Shown: positions 5,532-43,129 of the stretch, one piece after another
Numbering within the stretch: the first letter of the stretch is position 1
How the letters are laid out: every line of letters starts with the position of its first letter
Assembly: GCA_025210295.1 (NCBI GenBank)
Contig: JAOASC010000033.1
Coordinates: 62,001-126,000 of the forward strand
Direction: 5' to 3'
DNA length: 64,000 nt
Source: Flavobacteriales bacterium
GTDB taxonomy: Bacteria; Bacteroidota; Bacteroidia; Flavobacteriales_D; Parvicellaceae
Program-made: the position numbers and the translations under genes
Notes under the pieces: model-generated
What the model was told of the DNA's origin: nothing
The model's database searches: none
Seen by the model: only the letters and a program-made list of their open reading frames with translations

Positions 5532-6362
5532 TTATAAACTTCCAAAGGTTAAACCTACAGTAAAAGGTGTAAGCGTTGGTGCCTTATTATCTTCAAATAA
5601 TGAAGTAAATGAGTAACGGCCAAATAACCCAATATCTCCAAAAGAGACTCTTGCAACAGCATCCAGCTTAAAAGGATTAACATTGTAATCATCCCTTACT
5701 TTATTTTTATACTTGGTTCCATCAACAGCATATTTAGATTTTGTTAATGCACCAATATTATAACCAGCAATAGCTCCTACTTGTACATTTACCACTTTTT
5801 TATCTAAGTTTCCTAATCTAAATCCTAATAGTACGGGCACCTGTAAGTAGGTTGTTCTTAATTTATACTTATCGTAGGTTACAGAACTGTCTACCACAAA
5901 CAGTACGGTGTCGTTTTGAGTAGAAAGCATTTGTTGTTTATCTTTAAAGTGGTATTTATTCCAATCTAATCCAATTCCTGGCGAAAAATAAACACGTTTA
6001 TTAAATAAATCTAGCCCTCTAAGCATAAAGTCAAATCCTAGAGATTTTGAACGGCTATAATCCAATTCCATAGCTTGATATGGAGAGGGTAACCCAATTT
6101 GATTATTGTGTAAATAACCATTTGCTCCAATGTGGAAAGTTCCAACCATTGCCCACTCATCATCTTCTTCCTCGTCTGCTTTATCGATATCTAAAGAGTC
6201 TAAAAAGTCTTCTTCATTATCTGAAATGATGATGATTTTGGTTTTTCCCAACATGATTTTTGAAGTATCAGCAGGCTGAGGTGAATTTGTTGTATCTGTT
6301 TGAGCCAAGAATGAAATGAGTATAAAACTCATAATGGCCGTTAAAAAGTATTTAGTTTTCAT
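5532..6362 (-). CDS. Outer membrane beta-barrel protein (PorT-like)
   Basis: A 276-residue protein with an N-terminal signal peptide (about 1-20, ending SFLAQ). Then comes a very acidic linker at about residues 47-70 (a run of Asp/Glu around DKADEEEDDEW) and a barrel-type domain of alternating strands to the end (last residues FTVGLTFGSL). The layout fits the PorT/OMP_b-brl family of small Bacteroidota outer-membrane proteins. The acidic periplasmic linker might bind cations or partner proteins, but that is inference. It stands alone between recR upstream and the shared terminator at 5485-5519 downstream. Its specific role is unknown. Confidence 0.75.
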   Translation of the reverse strand: MKTKYFLTAIMSFILISFLAQTDTTNSPQPADTSKIMLGKTKIIIISDNEEDFLDSLDIDKADEEEDDEWAMVGTFHIGANGYLHNNQIGLPSPYQAMELDYSRSKSLGFDFMLRGLDLFNKRVYFSPGIGLDWNKYHFKDKQQMLSTQNDTVLFVVDSSVTYDKYKLRTTYLQVPVLLGFRLGNLDKKVVNVQVGAIAGYNIGALTKSKYAVDGTKYKNKVRDDYNVNPFKLDAVARVSFGDIGLFGRYSFTSLFEDNKAPTLTPFTVGLTFGSL

Positions 6363-29993: not shown

Positions 29994-32276
29994 TTATCTT
30001 AATAAGTTTACATGTCCTTTTTTATTGTGTTCGTTTCCAAAAAAGTCGAAGCATGTTATTTTGTATATATAAGTATCTTGTTTTACAGGATCGCCTTTAT
30101 AGGTCCCATCCCATGGCTTAAATATATCTGTATAATAAATTAATGTTCCCCATTTGTCAAAGATCTTAAAATCAAGTCCTTCTTCAACCATGGCATATTG
30201 TTTAAAGAAAAAGTCATCATTTTCGCCATCACCATTAGGTGTAAAAGTATTAGGGATATATAATGAAACAACAGGATCTATTCTAACACTTCTATAGGTA
30301 GTGTCTTTACAGCCATGAATAGTTTCTACTGCCAATTCTATTTGATATGTTCCTGTATCTCTATAGGTGTGATTAGGTTCAAAATCAACGCTGTATCTAT
30401 TATCTCCAAAAGACCAATCATAGAAATCAGCACCAATTGAGTTGTTAGGAAATTCGATATTTGATAAATACATGTTTGTTAATTCTGGGGTTACCTCAAA
30501 ATCAGCAATTGGATTATGCCACGCTGCGATGTAATCTACAATTTCAATAGAGTCATAACATCCTAAGTCATTACGAGTAACTAACCCTATTGTAAACAAA
30601 GAATCTTCTGTGTTGCTTGAGTTGTGATAACATTTAGAGGGGTTTTGATCATAAAGAGTATCACCTCCATCCAATGTCCATTCCCAAAAGTTAATAGAAG
30701 AAGCATTTGACAATGAAACATCATAAAAATCAATACAGGCATCAGCACAAGCTTGCGTTATGTTTGATGTAAATACAGCAGTAGGTTTTGCATAAACTTC
30801 AACCGGTTGAACAATAGTATCGAAACATCCATTCTCAGTATTCACAACAAGGCGGACATTGTATATTCCAGCTTCATCATAATCGTGTTGAGGATTAGGA
30901 AGCGTAGATACACTGTTTACCGCTTCATCAAAATTCCATTGCCATCCCATAATACTTCCCGTTGAAACTGTAGAAGCATTATAAAAAGCAGTAGCTTCTG
31001 TATTTTCACAGACATTCGTAAAGGTGTAATTTGCTACAGGTACAGAATAAATTTGAGTAGTTGTAGAGGTGTTATCGATACAGCCGTTGTTGGAAATAAC
31101 AATATAACTAATGTTGTAAGTTCCTTCTGAAGGATATTGATGTTGTGGATTAATATCTTGAACAATAGGAGATCCATCTCCAAAATCTAATATAGTTTGA
31201 TCAATGTAATCTGGAAAATTAATAGTTGATGAGTCTTCAAATTGAACAGAATCGTATTGACAAACAGGTGACTCTAACAAATGAGCTCTTGGGACAGGAT
31301 GAACAACTACAGGCATGACAGTATCTTTTACACAGCCTTCATTAGAAGTTGTGGTAAGTGTGACATTAAATGTGCCGTCTGTTGAGTATTGGTGTGAAGG
31401 GTTTTGTTGAGTGCTGGTTGCTCCTGTTTCTCCAAAATCCCATACAGTGGATTGAATATTTCCGGCTGCAATAATGGACTGATTTTGAAAGTATATCGGG
31501 TCATATAAACAGGTGGTCAATGGCGCTCCTGTAGGATTTAAATTGGTACTGTTGGTTACAGAAAAAGAAGGAACAGGTTGAGGGTTAACTGTAATGTTGT
31601 ATTGCATTTGATCGCATCCTTGAACAACGTCTATTACTGCAACTTCTGTCATTGTTGTAGGTGGAATGTTCATTGTTGGCAAATCACCAGTTCCTGCTGC
31701 AGGCAGTCCTATATTTGGATTGTTATTAGTCCACTCGTAGATAACGCCTGGTTGATTAGAATTTAAAAAAGGCGTAGGTGTGTAAGTAGTATTAGCACAA
31801 GCTTCTTCATCTGATAGCTGTTGAGGTGGTGTTGGACAAGGAATGGTAATAGTTCCTGTACTGGCAGGGTACATTCCACAACCATCTGCAGTAAAAGCAC
31901 TGTTTCCTGAAAGTACTGTGATTTCAACTGGGGTTCCACATGGTACTCCAGGGAAATCATACCTCACCCAGTCATTTTCTGTATTTGCTTTCCCACAAGC
32001 TGAAACGACTGTTGGTGCCGTAGAACAGTTCGGTAAACTATTAATTGTCGTTCTTTGATTATCGGTAGGAGACCCAGTTGTTGTAGTGGTTACACCATTA
32101 ACAGTAAGTCTAATTGTCATTGTTGTTGTTCCTGGGTCAGCTCTTCCATGCCAATGTTCTACCCATAGCGTTAATTCCCCTCCACAGCTTCCACACCATA
32201 CCACTTGTACAGAGTGAGCTTTCGCTAATTGCGAAACTATGATGAATAATATTGCTGCAAAAAATCGTTTAAACAT
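29994..32276 (-). CDS. Secreted PKD protein with N-terminal His/CxxC/HWH domain and type B T9SS sorting domain
   Basis: A 760-residue exported protein. The signal peptide ends AKA (residues 18-20), so the predicted mature N terminus is His21. An unnamed domain of about 210 residues follows, with CGSC at 28-31, EHWH at 40-43, and later DGCGMYPAS and PCP. Five PKD-like domains follow (about 235-660), then a type B sorting domain from IPNTFTPNGDGENDDF to KGHVNLLR. The first domain is shared with 32378-34072 at identical spacing. The PKD and C-terminal part is shared with 24544-27678. Transcription may start at its own -7 box (32299-32306). The mature N-terminal His suggests metal binding, which is inference. 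Confidence 0.92.
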   Translation of the reverse strand: MFKRFFAAILFIIVSQLAKAHSVQVVWCGSCGGELTLWVEHWHGRADPGTTTMTIRLTVNGVTTTTTGSPTDNQRTTINSLPNCSTAPTVVSACGKANTENDWVRYDFPGVPCGTPVEITVLSGNSAFTADGCGMYPASTGTITIPCPTPPQQLSDEEACANTTYTPTPFLNSNQPGVIYEWTNNNPNIGLPAAGTGDLPTMNIPPTTMTEVAVIDVVQGCDQMQYNITVNPQPVPSFSVTNSTNLNPTGAPLTTCLYDPIYFQNQSIIAAGNIQSTVWDFGETGATSTQQNPSHQYSTDGTFNVTLTTTSNEGCVKDTVMPVVVHPVPRAHLLESPVCQYDSVQFEDSSTINFPDYIDQTILDFGDGSPIVQDINPQHQYPSEGTYNISYIVISNNGCIDNTSTTTQIYSVPVANYTFTNVCENTEATAFYNASTVSTGSIMGWQWNFDEAVNSVSTLPNPQHDYDEAGIYNVRLVVNTENGCFDTIVQPVEVYAKPTAVFTSNITQACADACIDFYDVSLSNASSINFWEWTLDGGDTLYDQNPSKCYHNSSNTEDSLFTIGLVTRNDLGCYDSIEIVDYIAAWHNPIADFEVTPELTNMYLSNIEFPNNSIGADFYDWSFGDNRYSVDFEPNHTYRDTGTYQIELAVETIHGCKDTTYRSVRIDPVVSLYIPNTFTPNGDGENDDFFFKQYAMVEEGLDFKIFDKWGTLIYYTDIFKPWDGTYKGDPVKQDTYIYKITCFDFFGNEHNKKGHVNLLR

Positions 32277-32298
32277 AGTCTTGAATTTATGTTTTTAT

Positions 32299-32306
32299 CA
32301 AATCTA
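32299..32306 (-). promoter_or_regulatory. Candidate -7 element for the 29994-32276 gene
   Basis: On the minus strand this reads TAGATTTG, an exact TAnnTTTG match, 22 bases before the ATG. It lies in the 101-base gap that is the largest break in the T9SS cargo cluster. No clear -33 TTG is present at the usual spacing. Confidence 0.4.
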
Positions 32307-32377
32307 ATAATAATTTTGTCATTAAATATGATGATGTTGTCAATTTGTTAACGAGTCATTATGTTAATAGTTGCTTT

Positions 32378-34072
32378 TTATTGTGAATAAATAGTTATTT
32401 TCTCCAAAAATGGATTTTTATTAGCTATTGTTTGAATTTTTACAAAATAAATGCCTGTTTTTAAATGATTCACACTCATAAGAAGTTCAGTAGAAAAGAG
32501 GTGTGCTTTAGCGTAAACGACTTGCCCGTTTAAGTTAATTAATTCTACTTGATCAATAAGATCGGTTGCTTCGATTAAAATGAGTTGGTTGGTCACTTTA
32601 ATTTTTACAGCTGAAGTATTTTCACTGATGTTGTCATAGGCTTGGCAATCTACTACTTTAATACTGATTGAATCTTGATTTTGGCAGTTGTTATGGTCAG
32701 TTCCAGTGAGGTAAATAGTTGTGTCTCCATGTATATTTAGGTTAAAGAATCCCTCAGACAAAGTACTTCCGTCGGACCATAAGTATTGGTTTAAGTTAGT
32801 GGTACTAGATAAAAATACACTATCATTAAGGCATAAAGAGTCTTCAAAAATGGGGCTTATTTCTACTGTTGGGAGGCTATGTTCAATAATATTGATAGAG
32901 TCAGAATTTGTTATACAACCTGAGTCATCAATTGCTGTGTAAGAATAGATGCCAGGACTATTAATAAATAGTGAATCTATGGTATCGGAAGTTGGAGTCC
33001 ATAGAAGATTATTCCAATTGGAATTCGTATAAATAAATAAACTATCTCCTACGCAGTATGCGTTACCGTTGGGGGTGTTGATGATACTTGGTAACATCGA
33101 ATTGATATCAATTTGAACTGAATCGGATGTTCCCGTACACCCATTTGAGTCTGTTACTTCCACAAAATAGAGCGCTTCTGTTGATGGGGTTGTAGAAAGT
33201 GTACTGTCACCATTAGACCAGTTATAGGCATCAAAATGTTGAGTGACGGCTAAATTTATTGAATCATTCCAACAAATAGTAATTTGAGGAACGCTGTCTA
33301 AAATAGTAGAATCTGGCAAACTCAAGGTGAAATTAGGTTTAGGTTTTGGATTAACAATGATGTTAAACTTAGCTTGGTTACAGTTTTCAGATACTGATAT
33401 TTCAGCAACTTCTGTAACAGAAGAAAAGGGTGTGTTAAAACCAGGAAGTTGCTGTCCAACTCCTGAGGAGGCTAAGCCTATATTAGGGTTACTATTTGTC
33501 CAATGATAAACAGTACCTGCTTGACCAAAGTTTTGTAGAGAAGTAGGAGGAACGCTGTCGTTTGCACAGCCGTATTGGTTAGGGAGAATAGTTATTGGGG
33601 GCGGACATGGTAGTTGAATTGTTCCAACAGAAGCTGGAAATATTCCGCAACCGTCAGCAAGATCATCATTATCTCCTCCTATTACGGTAATTTCAACATC
33701 AACTGAACAAGGAATAGAATCGAAGTCATAAACAGCCCACCAATTTTCTGTATTTGCTGATGGACAAGCAGCAAAACTTATTATAGGTGTTGCGAATGTA
33801 GGTAAGGTGTTAAAACTGGTGTTAATAGTGGTATAAAGGACTCCTGCTTTACGGGTTGTGACACCATTAATTGTGTAATCAATTTCTATTGTTGACGAGG
33901 GATCAAAATTAGAAGTGTGCCAATGTTCAATAAAAAGTCTGAATTTACCTTCACAAGTTCCACACCAAGCTAACTGAATGGTGTGAGCCTTTACGAGTAA
34001 AGGTGTAAGAAAAACTAAAAGTACCCAAAATTTTTGCCATATTTTACCCTTGGTGCCGATAACTAATTTCAT
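32378..34072 (-). CDS. Secreted protein with N-terminal His/CxxC/HWH domain and type A T9SS sorting domain
   Basis: A 564-residue exported protein. The signal peptide ends VKA (27-29), which makes His30 the predicted first mature residue. The following domain of about 220 residues has CGTC at 37-40, EHWH at 49-52, DGCGIFPAS and LPCPPP, the same order and spacing as in 29994-32276. Ig-like segments (repeats of YNWSNGDSTLS and QYLWSDGSTLS type) and a divergent type A sorting domain (KIKVTNQLILIEATDLIDQV to KITIYSQ) complete it. The C-terminal 170 residues are nearly the same as in the neighbouring gene 34091-37723, including long identical DNA blocks. It starts 18 bases after that gene. Confidence 0.92.
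   Translation of the reverse strand: MKLVIGTKGKIWQKFWVLLVFLTPLLVKAHTIQLAWCGTCEGKFRLFIEHWHTSNFDPSSTIEIDYTINGVTTRKAGVLYTTINTSFNTLPTFATPIISFAACPSANTENWWAVYDFDSIPCSVDVEITVIGGDNDDLADGCGIFPASVGTIQLPCPPPITILPNQYGCANDSVPPTSLQNFGQAGTVYHWTNSNPNIGLASSGVGQQLPGFNTPFSSVTEVAEISVSENCNQAKFNIIVNPKPKPNFTLSLPDSTILDSVPQITICWNDSINLAVTQHFDAYNWSNGDSTLSTTPSTEALYFVEVTDSNGCTGTSDSVQIDINSMLPSIINTPNGNAYCVGDSLFIYTNSNWNNLLWTPTSDTIDSLFINSPGIYSYTAIDDSGCITNSDSINIIEHSLPTVEISPIFEDSLCLNDSVFLSSTTNLNQYLWSDGSTLSEGFFNLNIHGDTTIYLTGTDHNNCQNQDSISIKVVDCQAYDNISENTSAVKIKVTNQLILIEATDLIDQVELINLNGQVVYAKAHLFSTELLMSVNHLKTGIYFVKIQTIANKNPFLEKITIYSQ
32553..32707. repeat. Direct repeat, copy 1 (within the 32378-34072 gene)
   Basis: Two blocks, 32553-32608 (56 bases) and 32634-32707 (74 bases), are identical base for base to 34266-34321 and 34347-34420 in the adjacent gene. 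Identity includes synonymous positions, so the duplication is recent or maintained by gene conversion. Confidence 0.9.
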
Positions 34073-34090: not shown

Positions 34091-37000
34091 TTATTGAGGA
34101 TAGATGACTATTTTATTTGAAAAAGGATTTTTTGAAGTTATCGTATTGATATTTAAAATATAAATTCCTCTAGCTATATTCAGCGTTTCTATCGTTACTT
34201 CTTTTTTAAAATTATGATGACTTATGTATACTTTCTGTCCATTCAAGTTGACTAATTCTACTTGGTCAATAAGATCGGTTGCTTCGATTAAAATGAGTTG
34301 GTTGGTCACTTTAATTTTTACGGATGAAGTCTTTTCATTAATGTTATCATAGGCTTGGCAATCTACTACTTTAATACTGATTGAATCTTGATTTTGGCAG
34401 TTGTTATGGTCAGTTCCAGTAAGGGAAATTATTGTTTCTCCGATCGTATTTAAGTTAAAGAAGCCTCCAGACAGAACACTTCCGTCGGACCATAGGTATT
34501 GGCTCAAACTAGTGGTACTGGATAAAAAGACACTATCATTTAAACATAAAGAGTCTTCAGCTATAGCGGATATTTCAACAATAGGTAAGCTATTTTCAAT
34601 AATTGTTATTGTGTCTGAAAGTGTTGAGCATCCTGAGTCATCTATGGCGGTGTAAAAATAAATACCAGGTGTGTAAGAATAAATCGAATCGTTATTAGAG
34701 GTGTTATTCCACTGAATGTTTGATAGATTTTGCGCTGTGTGTAACATTAAACTATCTCCTTCACAAAAACTATTTCCATTGGGATGGTGCACTAAACTTT
34801 GTCCAGAAGATTTAAAACTAATTTGAATTGAATCAGATATGCCGACACAACCATTAGAATCTGTTGCTGAGACATAATAAAAACCTTCTTGAGTGAGTGT
34901 TGTTGCTTGGGCATTGCTTCCATTTGACCATAAATAAGCATCAAAATTATTTGCAGCAGTAAGCGTTACGGAATCATTCCAACAAATTAAAAAATTGGAC
35001 ACTGTATCTAAAACAGAAGATGGGGTATCATAGTTAATTTGATTAATGGTTATTGTATCTGATATGATAGGGCAACCATATTGATCATTTCCAGAAAAAT
35101 AATAGTCACCACTTGTGTTTACTGAAATAGAACTGGAGTTAGCGTTGTTATTCCAGATAATAGAATTGTGATTGTCGGTGTATAAAATGGATGTCCCTCC
35201 GGCACAAATTAACGTGTCTCCAATGATTTGAATAGGGTGTAAGTGTTGAGAAATAGGTAAAGAAATGGTGTCAGAGAAATATTGGCATCCGAAGTTGTTG
35301 GTCACTGAAACATAGTACTCTTGTGAGTCGTCGATATCTATTGAAGCTGATGTTTCTCCTGTATTCCATAAATATGATGAGAACATATTAGTCGTTGACA
35401 ATTGTGTAGAATCATTATAACAAATAGCGTTTGATGAGGTTTGTATATTTAGGTCATAATTAGGTATAATGACAACATTTAAAGTGTCTGATTTTCCTGG
35501 GCAATTGTTGTTATCAACTGTTTCCAAAGTATAGCTTCCAGCTGTAGAAAGATAGGTCGTATTAGAAGTACTTCCTGTCGACCATGAATAGGAAGCAAAA
35601 GTGTTGATGGAAGCAACTTCTATAGAGTCTCCTTCACAGATATTTAGCGTGTTATTATGCGATAGAATAGTTGGGTGAGTAGGTTGACAAAGTATCGACC
35701 AAAATCCATCATAAATATGCCCTCCATAATTGCTTTGATGCGCATTGGGGGTTACAAAGTTATTGTTTGAACCAGTTTGCCCTACAATTAGAATTTTATG
35801 GTCTGAAGTAAAGTCTAACTCATATCCATATTCATCGCTAACACCTCCAAAGTAACTAGACCAAGTATGATTACCATTGATAGAAAATGTTGAAATAATA
35901 TTGTCGTATCCTCCATTATTTGTTTGTTGAAAGGAGGTATTGTTTGTTGCTAAAGTAGTTCCATTAGTTGTCCCGAGCAGCCACAAGAGCGTATCTTTAC
36001 TTTTAATGCTACTAAAATTTTCATTTCCTCCAGCGTCAAAATATGTTCCCCACTGCTGGGCGCTTGAACTGTCAAGTTTTGTTATAAAGCCATCCCAAGT
36101 ATTGGAGTTGGAGTAATTAGGTTGATGTGCATTAGCAGTAGAAATCCCAACACTACTTTTTGTTTTCCCCGTTAAATAAATGTTTTCTAGAGAATCTAAC
36201 GTCATTCCCTCTATTAGGTCGTTATGATCTCCTCCGTAATATGTTTTCCATATTGTGTTATATTGGTTGGAGATCTTTAAGACAAATCCATCAATATAGC
36301 CTCCATTTTGGTTTTGATGTATGTTTTGATTTGCAATCGTTTCGTTATCGTTTGTATAGCCCGCAATATATATTGTTCCATTGTTTGTAATTGCAATTTC
36401 TTCACCTCTAGTATTGGAGCCTTTTACATAGTAGGAGTTGTATAATATATTCCCCGCATCATCAAAAACGCCAAGAAAAGCATTTTCGTAACCACTTAAA
36501 GTATTTCTGTATGCATTTGGAGTACAAGAGAGGTCTGTACTGGCAGTATGTCCTGTAATATAGACCTTATTCGCTGCGTCTACTTCGATGGCTGTGATTA
36601 ATTCATGATCATTTCCTCCATAGTAGGTACTCCAAGTTAACGTTCCATTAGAGGTGAATTTTGAAAGAAATGCATCATCTCCACTTGAAAGTATTTGTTG
36701 ATATGCGCCTGGTGTAGTAACTCCCATTTGACTAGTAGAATTTCCTGCAATGTAGATGTTATCGTTATCGTCTAATGCAGAGGAGTAGATTCGTTCACTG
36801 TAGTTCCCTCCAAAATATGTGGCCCAAAGTCTCACTCCTTGTTGGTTAAATGCTGCTATAAATGCGTCTTGATCAGCAAGAGTGTTTTGGTAAGCCCCTG
36901 TGGTGGCTATGTTGTTAGTGCTTACTGTATAACCAGATACAATAATTTCATTAGCACTATTTTGAACTATACTTTGAGCAAAGTCCATGTGAGAGCCTCC

Positions 37001-37723
37001 ATAATAAGTGGTGTATTGGTTACTATAAGCAATGGGATCGATTACAAAATCATTCGTTCTATTTTTAGGAAGATGATACTGTAAGCCATTTCCTTTAGTT
37101 TTTATCTTAAGATCTACTAACTTTTTTTGCTTGTTAGGAAGTAGAAAGAATGCTTCAGGAATGGTTTCTTTTATTGCACCATTTTTACTTGTTAGCGTAA
37201 TAACATTCCCTGAGATTGATGGGGTTGCTCCCATGATTTTTAAAGGGAGACTTTTGATCGTTTTATTTCGAACGATATAGTTGTATTTTAAATGGTTATC
37301 GACAATAAAAAACTCAATGTCAACCCCCTCCCATATATTTTTATAGGTAATCTTTTTGAATTGATTAACGTTTAGGGTGGTTTTACTGTTTTTATAAAAG
37401 TTGAGTTGTTCAGCTACTTTTCCACTAGAAACAATTGAAGCATTAGAGTGACTGTTTTCAAACCATACTTCTATTCTTTCTACATCAACCTTATTACTGT
37501 CTAGTTCGTTGGTTGAAAAGCTTTCATAAGCAAAATGGTCATGATAAAAACTTACATTATAGGCTTCAAGGCTTAATAGGTAAGCAACATCTGTATTAAA
37601 AACTCCATTTTGATTTACAATTTGCCCTTGGTTTTTGATAAAAAAATTAGACTGTGAAAAACCAAAACTGCTAATTAAAAACAAAAAATAGGCAATAGAA
37701 ATATATTTTTTAAACCCCCACAT
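34091..37723 (-). CDS. Secreted SBBP-repeat protein with Ig-like domains and type A T9SS sorting domain
   Basis: About 1210 residues from the ATG at 37723 (GGAG lies just upstream; a TTG 15 bases earlier is less likely). A signal peptide (about 1-23) precedes an N-terminal domain typical of SBBP proteins (FFIKNQGQIVNQNGVFNTDV ... ITYKNIWEGVDIEFFI). Then come about nine propeller-like SBBP repeats (patterns WxTYYGGxxxD and GNIYITGxTxS) to about residue 680. Several Ig-like units with YSWSTGSTSN or YLWSNGSNAQ turns follow, and the sorting domain ends NKIVIYPQ. The C-terminal part is duplicated in 32378-34072. The gene lies 33 bases after the AsmA-like gene on the same strand. Confidence 0.92.
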   Translation of the reverse strand: MWGFKKYISIAYFLFLISSFGFSQSNFFIKNQGQIVNQNGVFNTDVAYLLSLEAYNVSFYHDHFAYESFSTNELDSNKVDVERIEVWFENSHSNASIVSSGKVAEQLNFYKNSKTTLNVNQFKKITYKNIWEGVDIEFFIVDNHLKYNYIVRNKTIKSLPLKIMGATPSISGNVITLTSKNGAIKETIPEAFFLLPNKQKKLVDLKIKTKGNGLQYHLPKNRTNDFVIDPIAYSNQYTTYYGGSHMDFAQSIVQNSANEIIVSGYTVSTNNIATTGAYQNTLADQDAFIAAFNQQGVRLWATYFGGNYSERIYSSALDDNDNIYIAGNSTSQMGVTTPGAYQQILSSGDDAFLSKFTSNGTLTWSTYYGGNDHELITAIEVDAANKVYITGHTASTDLSCTPNAYRNTLSGYENAFLGVFDDAGNILYNSYYVKGSNTRGEEIAITNNGTIYIAGYTNDNETIANQNIHQNQNGGYIDGFVLKISNQYNTIWKTYYGGDHNDLIEGMTLDSLENIYLTGKTKSSVGISTANAHQPNYSNSNTWDGFITKLDSSSAQQWGTYFDAGGNENFSSIKSKDTLLWLLGTTNGTTLATNNTSFQQTNNGGYDNIISTFSINGNHTWSSYFGGVSDEYGYELDFTSDHKILIVGQTGSNNNFVTPNAHQSNYGGHIYDGFWSILCQPTHPTILSHNNTLNICEGDSIEVASINTFASYSWSTGSTSNTTYLSTAGSYTLETVDNNNCPGKSDTLNVVIIPNYDLNIQTSSNAICYNDSTQLSTTNMFSSYLWNTGETSASIDIDDSQEYYVSVTNNFGCQYFSDTISLPISQHLHPIQIIGDTLICAGGTSILYTDNHNSIIWNNNANSSSISVNTSGDYYFSGNDQYGCPIISDTITINQINYDTPSSVLDTVSNFLICWNDSVTLTAANNFDAYLWSNGSNAQATTLTQEGFYYVSATDSNGCVGISDSIQISFKSSGQSLVHHPNGNSFCEGDSLMLHTAQNLSNIQWNNTSNNDSIYSYTPGIYFYTAIDDSGCSTLSDTITIIENSLPIVEISAIAEDSLCLNDSVFLSSTTSLSQYLWSDGSVLSGGFFNLNTIGETIISLTGTDHNNCQNQDSISIKVVDCQAYDNINEKTSSVKIKVTNQLILIEATDLIDQVELVNLNGQKVYISHHNFKKEVTIETLNIARGIYILNINTITSKNPFSNKIVIYPQ
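34266..34420. repeat. Direct repeat, copy 2 (within the 34091-37723 gene)
   Basis: This is the partner of 32553-32707: blocks of 56 and 74 bases are identical, separated by 25 bases with several differences. The copies lie 1.7 kb apart in the same orientation, so recombination between them could delete or fuse the two genes. Confidence 0.9.
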
Positions 37724-37756
37724 AACTCCAAAAACCAAAAGTTACGAATTTGTAAT

Positions 37757-41329: not shown

Positions 41330-43129
41330 TTACTTAAACTTTTGTATTGCTCCAGATTTAATTCTAGCAAAGTAGTCTTTCATATCTTCTTTGACTTCGC
41401 TAGACATAATAACCAAACCAAGGATGTTTGGGAACGCCATTCCTAAAATCATAAAGTCAGAGAAGTCAATTACTGCTCCTAATCCTGCAGAAGAACCAAT
41501 AACAACAAAAACTAAGAAAACAAACTTATAAGCATATTCAGAAGCTTTAGATTCTCCAAGCATATAAGTCCATGCTTTTAGTCCGTAATAAGACCACGAA
41601 ATCATAGTAGAGAAAGCAAAAAGTATAGCTGCAAAAGCTAAAACATATGCAGACCAGTCTCCTAACACTGATTTAAAAGCTTCAGAAGTCAATTCGGCTC
41701 CTTCAAAACCTTGCGTATCATCTGCATACCCTGTAAAAATTAAAACTAATGCCGTCATGGTACAAACTACAACCGTATCAATAAATGGTTCTAGCAATGC
41801 TACAATACCCTCACTGATAGGCTCGTCAGTTTTTGCTGCAGAATGGGCAATAGAGGCTGAACCAACTCCTGCTTCATTAGAAAAAGCAGCACGTTGAAAA
41901 CCAACGATGATAACACCTATTACTCCACCTTTTAATGCATCAGGAGAGAAAGCTCCGTTAAAAATTTGATAAAATGCTTCTCCAATGTAAGAAATATTCA
42001 TCCCAATAATAATCAAAGCACTTAAGACATAAATACCTACCATTAGAGGCACAACTTTATCGGTAACATTAGCGATGCTTTTTATTCCTCCAATGATAAC
42101 AATACCCACTAAAATTGCCAGAACAATACCAAAATAAACTCCATTTCCTTCGAGAAAGCTTAAGAATGGAATGCTTTTAGCCTGAGCAAAAGCCTGGTTA
42201 GCTTGAAACATGTTTCCTCCACCTACAGAACCTCCAACACATAATATGGCAAAAAAGAAAGCTAAAAACTTCCCTAATCCACCTAAACCTCTTTTCTTTA
42301 ATCCTTTACTTAAGTAATACATTGGCCCTCCTGAAACTTCTCCATCAGAATGAACGTTTCTGTATTTAACACCTAAAGTACATTCAACAAATTTTGAAGA
42401 CATTCCTATTAGCCCCGCAACAATCATCCAAAATGTAGCTCCTGCGCCTCCTAGTGTAATGGCAACGGCAACACCAACAATATTTCCAAGTCCAACAGTT
42501 CCACTTAAGGCAGTAACTAATGCTTGAAAATGAGAGACTTCTCCTTTATCATTAGGGTTGTCATAATCTCCACGAATTAGTTCAACAGCATGTCTAACTC
42601 CTCTAAAGTTGACGAACTTCATTTTTAATGTAAAAAAGATAGCTCCTATAACTAACCAAACTACAATAAAAGGAATGCTAGTTGTTTTAGGATCTCCATT
42701 GGCATGTCTTATCACTTCACCCTCATTATTATAAATCTTGTTATCGTGTCCAAAAAAAGCAAATGGATCAAACATCAAAAAGCTTCCGATAGCATCTACT
42801 ATTGGGGTAAATCCAATATTAATACTTTCACTTAAGTTTTTGGTGGGAACAATTACTGTGCTTTCTGCTTTTTCACCGTTCGCATCTGTCACCACTAATG
42901 TATATTCTTTTCCTTCTACAAGTTTTTCTGATAAGTCGCTGGTAAGAGCTGTAGCATTGTTGCTCCAGTAAAATTGATATGGTGGAGTTCCTCCTTTTAC
43001 AATAGCTTTAGCAAAACCATCTTTTAAACCATCTGTTTTGTTTCCTGTTTCAAATTCTACAGAGATTTGTGCTGTGGTATAAAACGAACAAACAAGAAAA
43101 GATAAAAGCGCGATTATTTTAAACTTCAT
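41330..43129 (-). CDS. Na+:alanine/glycine symporter (AGCS family) with N-terminal exported Ig-like domain
   Basis: A 599-residue protein, about 100-130 longer than a usual AGCS transporter. Residues 1-20 form a signal peptide (FYTTAQ). Residues 21 to about 97 form an SprB-like Ig unit ([20 protein letters not shown], then [16 protein letters not shown]). The transporter follows with the family signatures [30 protein letters not shown] (AGCS motif region), [15 protein letters not shown] and [20 protein letters not shown]. It would import alanine or glycine with Na+. The Ig-like unit would face the periplasm. It has its own promoter and a leader hairpin, and converges with the rhodanese gene. 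Confidence 0.93.

Follow-up and report, generated by a model that had tools for sequence, protein, structure and literature searches.

A conserved, unnamed domain of Bacteroidota surface proteins with a candidate N-terminal histidine metal site

Introduction

Do some exported surface proteins of the Bacteroidota begin with a histidine that serves as a metal ligand? The question is raised by two adjacent genes in a 64,000-nucleotide stretch of DNA (hereafter the window) from a Flavobacteriales bacterium of the Parvicellaceae (GenBank assembly GCA_025210295.1, contig JAOASC010000033.1, positions 62,001 to 126,000). Gene A (29994-32276, minus strand, 760 amino acids) and gene B (32378-34072, minus strand, 564 amino acids) encode predicted secreted proteins that share a domain placed directly after the signal peptide, with a His as the predicted first mature residue (His1) and an EHWH motif shortly behind it. 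The original prediction for this locus assigned this His1/EHWH domain, tentatively, to the copper histidine-brace family.

Only a few proteins use an N-terminal His as part of a metal site, and the chemistry of some of them is powerful. In lytic polysaccharide monooxygenases (LPMOs; AA10), CopC and X325 proteins, the mature chain starts with His and folds as a beta-sandwich, and the second His is far more distant in the sequence than in the domain described here. Those Bacteroidota that have been studied are described as lacking LPMOs (PMC5127042, PMC6247017).

Results

A shared N-terminal domain on two differently tailed proteins

A and B are organized in the same order: signal peptide, His1/EHWH domain of approximately 130 residues, immunoglobulin (Ig)-like or PKD modules, and a sorting tail of the type IX secretion system (T9SS). 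At the signal junction, A reads MFKRFFAAILFIIVSQLAKA (ending in AKA) before the predicted cut and HSVQVVWCGSCGGELTLWVEHWHG after it, while B reads LLVKA followed by HTIQLAWCGTCEGKFRLFIEHWHT. Both putative mature domains carry H1, C8, C11 and E20-H21-W22-H23, as well as the DGCG.[YF]PAS and PCP blocks; the open reading frames (ORFs), signal peptides and residue spacings of the original prediction proved exact. The domains are 45-46% identical, a resemblance that, together with 41 further relatives, lies far beyond chance.

At their rears the two proteins differ. Pfam and NCBIfam place PKD and CHU_C/TIGR04131 (a type B T9SS signal) at the rear of A, and an Ig-like part with Por_Secre_tail/TIGR04183 (a type A signal) at the rear of B, in agreement with the architectures first proposed. 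The claim that the proteins are otherwise built differently applies to these rears but not to the second Ig-like module: a BLASTP alignment at 44% identity joins residues 1-241 of A to residues 11-251 of B. Signal peptide, His1/EHWH domain and the next Ig-like module are thus common to both, and divergence sets in behind them. Having a predicted Sec signal and a type B or type A C-terminal signal, A and B qualify by sequence as T9SS cargo.

Relatives are patchily distributed and always N-terminal

We collected 43 distinct members of the domain, including A and B, all from Bacteroidota; genome-by-genome searches were kept within this phylum, and a wider contig scan with a single sequence produced 13 loci. 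Among sampled genomes, the domain occurred in 10 of 39 from the same family, 17 of 399 from the order and 14 of 345 from the class (the source genome is included in each count), a patchy spread amounting to a few percent of order and class. One genome added later (G1107) has a copy (L092) with H1 and EHWH. A single-sequence search of the phylum returned the source genome only, indicating that profiles are needed to find relatives. Searches of Pfam, NCBIfam and PDB sequences with single members and profiles found no relative of the domain, nor did searches of plasmids and phages, and a literature search for the motif strings returned nothing relevant. The domain is real, conserved and unnamed.

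The source genome contains a third copy elsewhere (G000, contig C28). In a tree of the domain, A, B and this copy fall into three separate groups, each of which recurs within the genus; B sits on a long branch (1.11) and retains the motif. At the syntenic locus, the nearest relatives of the B domain have PKD and CHU_C behind it (L006), so the Ig/type A rear of B appears to have arisen by local replacement or shuffling. What follows the domain varies across the family: PKD repeats, Ig-like domains, TSP3 repeats in L056 and, in L070, sequence that matches no Pfam entry. The domain itself is always the first module at the mature N terminus, and none of the confident matches is internal. These reshuffled downstream modules bear out the proposal that the domain is a mobile module, though always the first one.

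Three histidines are conserved, and the CxxC pair is not

The original prediction defined the domain by His1, CxxC and EHWH, and raised the question whether His1 and HWH are invariant among homologues. HxH is present in all members and His1 in 42 of 43, the exception (L026) having Asp in its place. L026, which retains EHWH, is thus a single instance of what the original prediction named as evidence against it, a homologue that lacks His1. Over the 42 members that span the whole domain, H1 occurs in 41, and Q4, G13, E20, H21, W22, H23, L61, P62, N78 and W83 occur in all 42. Only three His columns are conserved in the family: 1, 21 and 23.

The CxxC pair did not hold up as part of the definition. 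Both C8 and C11 are absent from L056 and L070, and C11 is absent from L024, L026 and L054. The most divergent members (L054, L056 and L070, about 25-35% identical to the rest) have dropped cysteines and retained H1 and EHWH. Since CxxC is lost in members that keep H1 and EHWH (apart from H1 in L026), it is not essential, and we rejected it as an essential metal ligand. In every member except L070, C93 is present or absent together with a Cys at 126/127, which suggests that these two probably form one disulfide; C8, C11, C64 and C74 may form others.

The predicted cut would expose His where Gln is the norm

Substrates of signal peptidase I in Bacteroidota have, on average, 71% Gln at +1 per species (PMC5837995). 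We read by eye the residue that directly follows the A/S/G site in the N termini of window ORFs. Gln was found in 16 of them (starts at 5532, 11752, 15517, 19477, 22409, 24544, 27675, 28077, 34091, 41330, 44140, 46198, 48846, 57222, 59365 and 60113), Asn in one (50693), and His in A and B only. Cut sites were also scored with a crude weight matrix trained on the Gln sites of ORFs outside the family. By this measure, His does not occur at +1 in any of 63 best sites from non-family ORFs. For A and B the matrix puts the site before His1, where cleavage had been proposed, in first place; across the family it does so in only 16 of 41 members, and 33 of 41 have this site among their three best. Its main competitor lies two residues downstream. 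For L026, the best predicted cut falls between ADA and QQ and would give a Gln start.

Every member has A, G or S at -1 of His1, and conservation begins abruptly at this residue. That onset is a stronger argument than the matrix for His1 as the putative mature start; the matrix itself lends cleavage before His1 only moderate support.

A predicted hairpin may bring the histidines together

A fold model of mature A, computed without metal from a 13-sequence alignment, was all-beta (predicted local distance difference test score, pLDDT, 80.2; predicted template modeling score, pTM, 0.76), with first strands at residues 2-9 and 15-21. Were these two strands to form a hairpin in which residues 9 and 15 face each other, residue i would pair with 24-i, which would place H1 opposite H23, V3 opposite H21 and Q4 opposite E20. 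In this register, derived from strand limits rather than coordinates, H1, H21 and H23 would share one face of the hairpin, and Q4, E20 and W22 the other. A model of B, made without an alignment, was unusable (pLDDT 57).

Foldseek returned no match at E<=0.001. In a second look at its matches, a CBM56 structure (5t7a_B) came top (Z 7.4, root-mean-square deviation 2.4, 84 residues aligned), and many fibronectin type III (FnIII) domains had a Z near 6. We describe the predicted fold as an Ig/FnIII-like sandwich and take these matches to reflect that common architecture, not as evidence of kinship. LPMO, CopC, X325 and PmoB were not among the matches listed in either analysis, which does not exclude them.

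No detectable sequence kinship to LPMO, CopC or DUF6702

Thirteen diverse members gave no Pfam match at E<=1 to LPMO_10 (PF03067), CopC (PF04234) or DUF6702 (PF20420), and neither LPMO_10 nor CopC was found in the source genome. Comparison with DUF6702 proteins of the same order by hhalign yielded a probability of 2%. By sequence, the domain is without detectable kinship to these three families. The proposed kinship with LPMO or CopC is thus without support; the domain may work like a His-brace site.

In its ligands the candidate site resembles the CuB site of particulate methane monooxygenase (pMMO), which consists of the N-terminal His33 with His137 and His139 (PMC12576850). In PmoB, one copper is held by an N-terminal His, through its amine and side chain, and by the two His of an H-x-H (PMC12576850); the domain has a putative N-terminal His and an HxH. 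The two differ in that H-x-H lies approximately 105 residues after the N-terminal His in PmoB and 20-22 residues after it in the domain, and in that PmoB belongs to a membrane complex and the domain does not; nor does the domain match the PmoB family in Pfam.

DUF6702 proteins, described as metal sequesterases, are mainly from Bacteroidota and resemble the domain in their mature His1, Ig-like sandwich and proposed tri-His site (His1, His28 and His32, from AlphaFold3 models, thermal shift and electron paramagnetic resonance); they prefer Ni and showed no significant oxidase or peroxidase activity (PMC12537917). Unlike the domain, they have a longer N-terminal hairpin and no EHWH, and those encountered here occur alone, as short proteins of roughly 160-210 residues. 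DUF6702 is present in 21 of 25 related genomes, and the source genome has one member (L087, G000:C38:18726-19124). Among the members L073-L087, one second-strand position is His (AHD) in some and Asp (DD) in others; the proposed tri-His site may thus be missing from part of that family. In the anglerases Ang-1 and Ang-2, an N-terminal His domain that binds copper likewise sits on a larger protein, and in Ang-1 it is an Ig-like sandwich. The fusion partners there are HupE/UreJ permeases, the hosts are Pseudomonadota and Actinomycetota, and Ang-1 has a mono-histidine brace with Asn41 (PMC12537917).

Features and neighboring genes

Table 1. Features of genes A and B (window coordinates).
Feature	Coordinates	Strand	Basis
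A signal peptide, residues 1-20, ends AKA	32217..32276	-	predicted cut
A His1/EHWH domain, mature residues 1-132	31821..32216	-	sequence, model; no Pfam/NCBIfam/PDB relative
A His1 codon (putative mature N terminus)	32214..32216	-	H in 42/43 distinct members
A CGSC (C8-x-x-C11), not invariant in family	32184..32195	-	alignment
A EHWH (E20 H21 W22 H23)	32148..32159	-	42/42 full-span members
A second Ig-like module, PKD repeats, CHU_C type B T9SS signal	29994..31820	-	Pfam/NCBIfam, BLASTP
B signal peptide, residues 1-29, ends VKA	33986..34072	-	predicted cut
B His1/EHWH domain, mature residues 1-134	33584..33985	-	sequence, identity to A
B His1 codon (putative mature N terminus)	33983..33985	-	sequence, family conservation
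B CGTC (C8-x-x-C11)	33953..33964	-	sequence
B EHWH	33917..33928	-	sequence
B second Ig-like module (as in A), further Ig-like parts, Por_Secre_tail type A T9SS signal	32378..33583	-	Pfam/NCBIfam, BLASTP

The gene pair is adjoined by a gene for a DUF7948/SBBP protein (34091-37738, minus strand), and the gene after that is AsmA-like. At L004, L006, L008 and L016 the His-domain gene has neighbors of similar appearance, which indicates conserved synteny. Further along, an ORF at 41330-43129 (minus strand) combines a signal peptide, a weak N-terminal match to the SprB repeat (below the Pfam cut-off) and a Na/alanine symporter domain (193-594), an odd joining of a surface module to a transporter.

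Discussion

We read the domain as a metal-binding tip at the N terminus of surface proteins exported by the T9SS, and give this reading a probability of about 0.62. Signal peptidase I would expose His1. Through its amino group and its side chain, this residue would chelate one transition metal together with His21 and/or His23 of the next hairpin strand, at one end of the Ig/FnIII-like sandwich. Disulfides would stiffen this fold without defining the domain, and PKD, Ig or TSP3 stalks together with the T9SS tail would hold the tip at the cell surface. By analogy with PmoB CuB and the tri-His site proposed for DUF6702, a surface site made of the N-terminal His and HxH is the best reading of the conserved residues, and the retention of His1 against the Gln-first rule of the phylum argues for it.

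That the domain binds a transition metal at all seems rather probable to us; which metal, and to what purpose, is less certain. Copper appears most likely, possibly nickel or zinc, with copper or nickel more likely than zinc. Given the CuB ligand set and the absence of significant oxidase or peroxidase activity in DUF6702, we favor the holding or capture of metal at the surface by a tri-His or brace-type site. The tip would most likely capture or hold metal, or use it in adhesion, rather than pass it to a dedicated transporter.

Several observations weigh against this reading. L026 lacks His1 and yet retains EHWH; the block 21-30, which contains two of the three His, has a mean pLDDT of only 68; and a cut two residues downstream of the favored site, between AHS and VQ, often scores equally in the matrix. 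No copper genes were noticed among the window neighbors or the relatives' flanks (read by eye, not all flanks scanned), so a transport partner is not evident. Lastly, Q4, G13, E20, W22, N78 and W83 match the three His residues in invariance, and this conservation could serve another ligand.

The last point leads to an alternative that we consider unlikely, in which the His residues are structural or bind nothing special and the domain is the carbohydrate- or protein-binding tip of an adhesin, its free N terminus being incidental. The Ig/FnIII-like fold and adhesin-like architecture are compatible with such a role, and E20, W22, W83, N78 and Q4 could form a ligand face; a plain adhesin domain, however, should be free to start with other residues and to sit inside a protein, whereas His is maintained at +1 in a phylum that normally has Gln there, and no internal copy of the domain was found.

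A catalytic copper center strikes us as quite improbable; here PKD-bearing surface proteins would display an oxidative enzyme, resembling an LPMO or a peroxygenase, whose targets would be polysaccharides or other polymers. The first ligand is alike and a second His is present, the proteins are secreted on modular stalks, Gln4, Glu20 and Trp22 are conserved on the same hairpin, and the top structural match is a CBM56, although a Z below 8 may reflect nothing more than a widespread arrangement. Against this reading, no LPMO_10 similarity was found and no sugar-degradation genes were noticed beside the domain genes. Catalysis by the domain is a slight possibility, and a new Bacteroidota family of surface copper oxidative enzymes, with a PmoB-like His1 and HxH site on an Ig-like hairpin, is at least as doubtful. 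Finally, we give very little credence to cleavage between AHS and VQ, which would remove His1 from the mature protein: this cut outscores the site before His1 in several members, but not in A and B, nothing is conserved upstream of His1, and a residue at -2 would not be expected to be near-invariant.

A metal-binding tip therefore remains our preferred reading. The His1/EHWH arrangement is an unusually clean candidate metal site, and the domain is a small, expressible candidate metalloprotein that has no Pfam entry, is confined to N termini and keeps His1 in a phylum where Gln comes first. If the exposed His1 creates a surface copper or nickel site, the domain would represent a further class of His1 metalloproteins beyond those found by signal strapping (PMC12537917).
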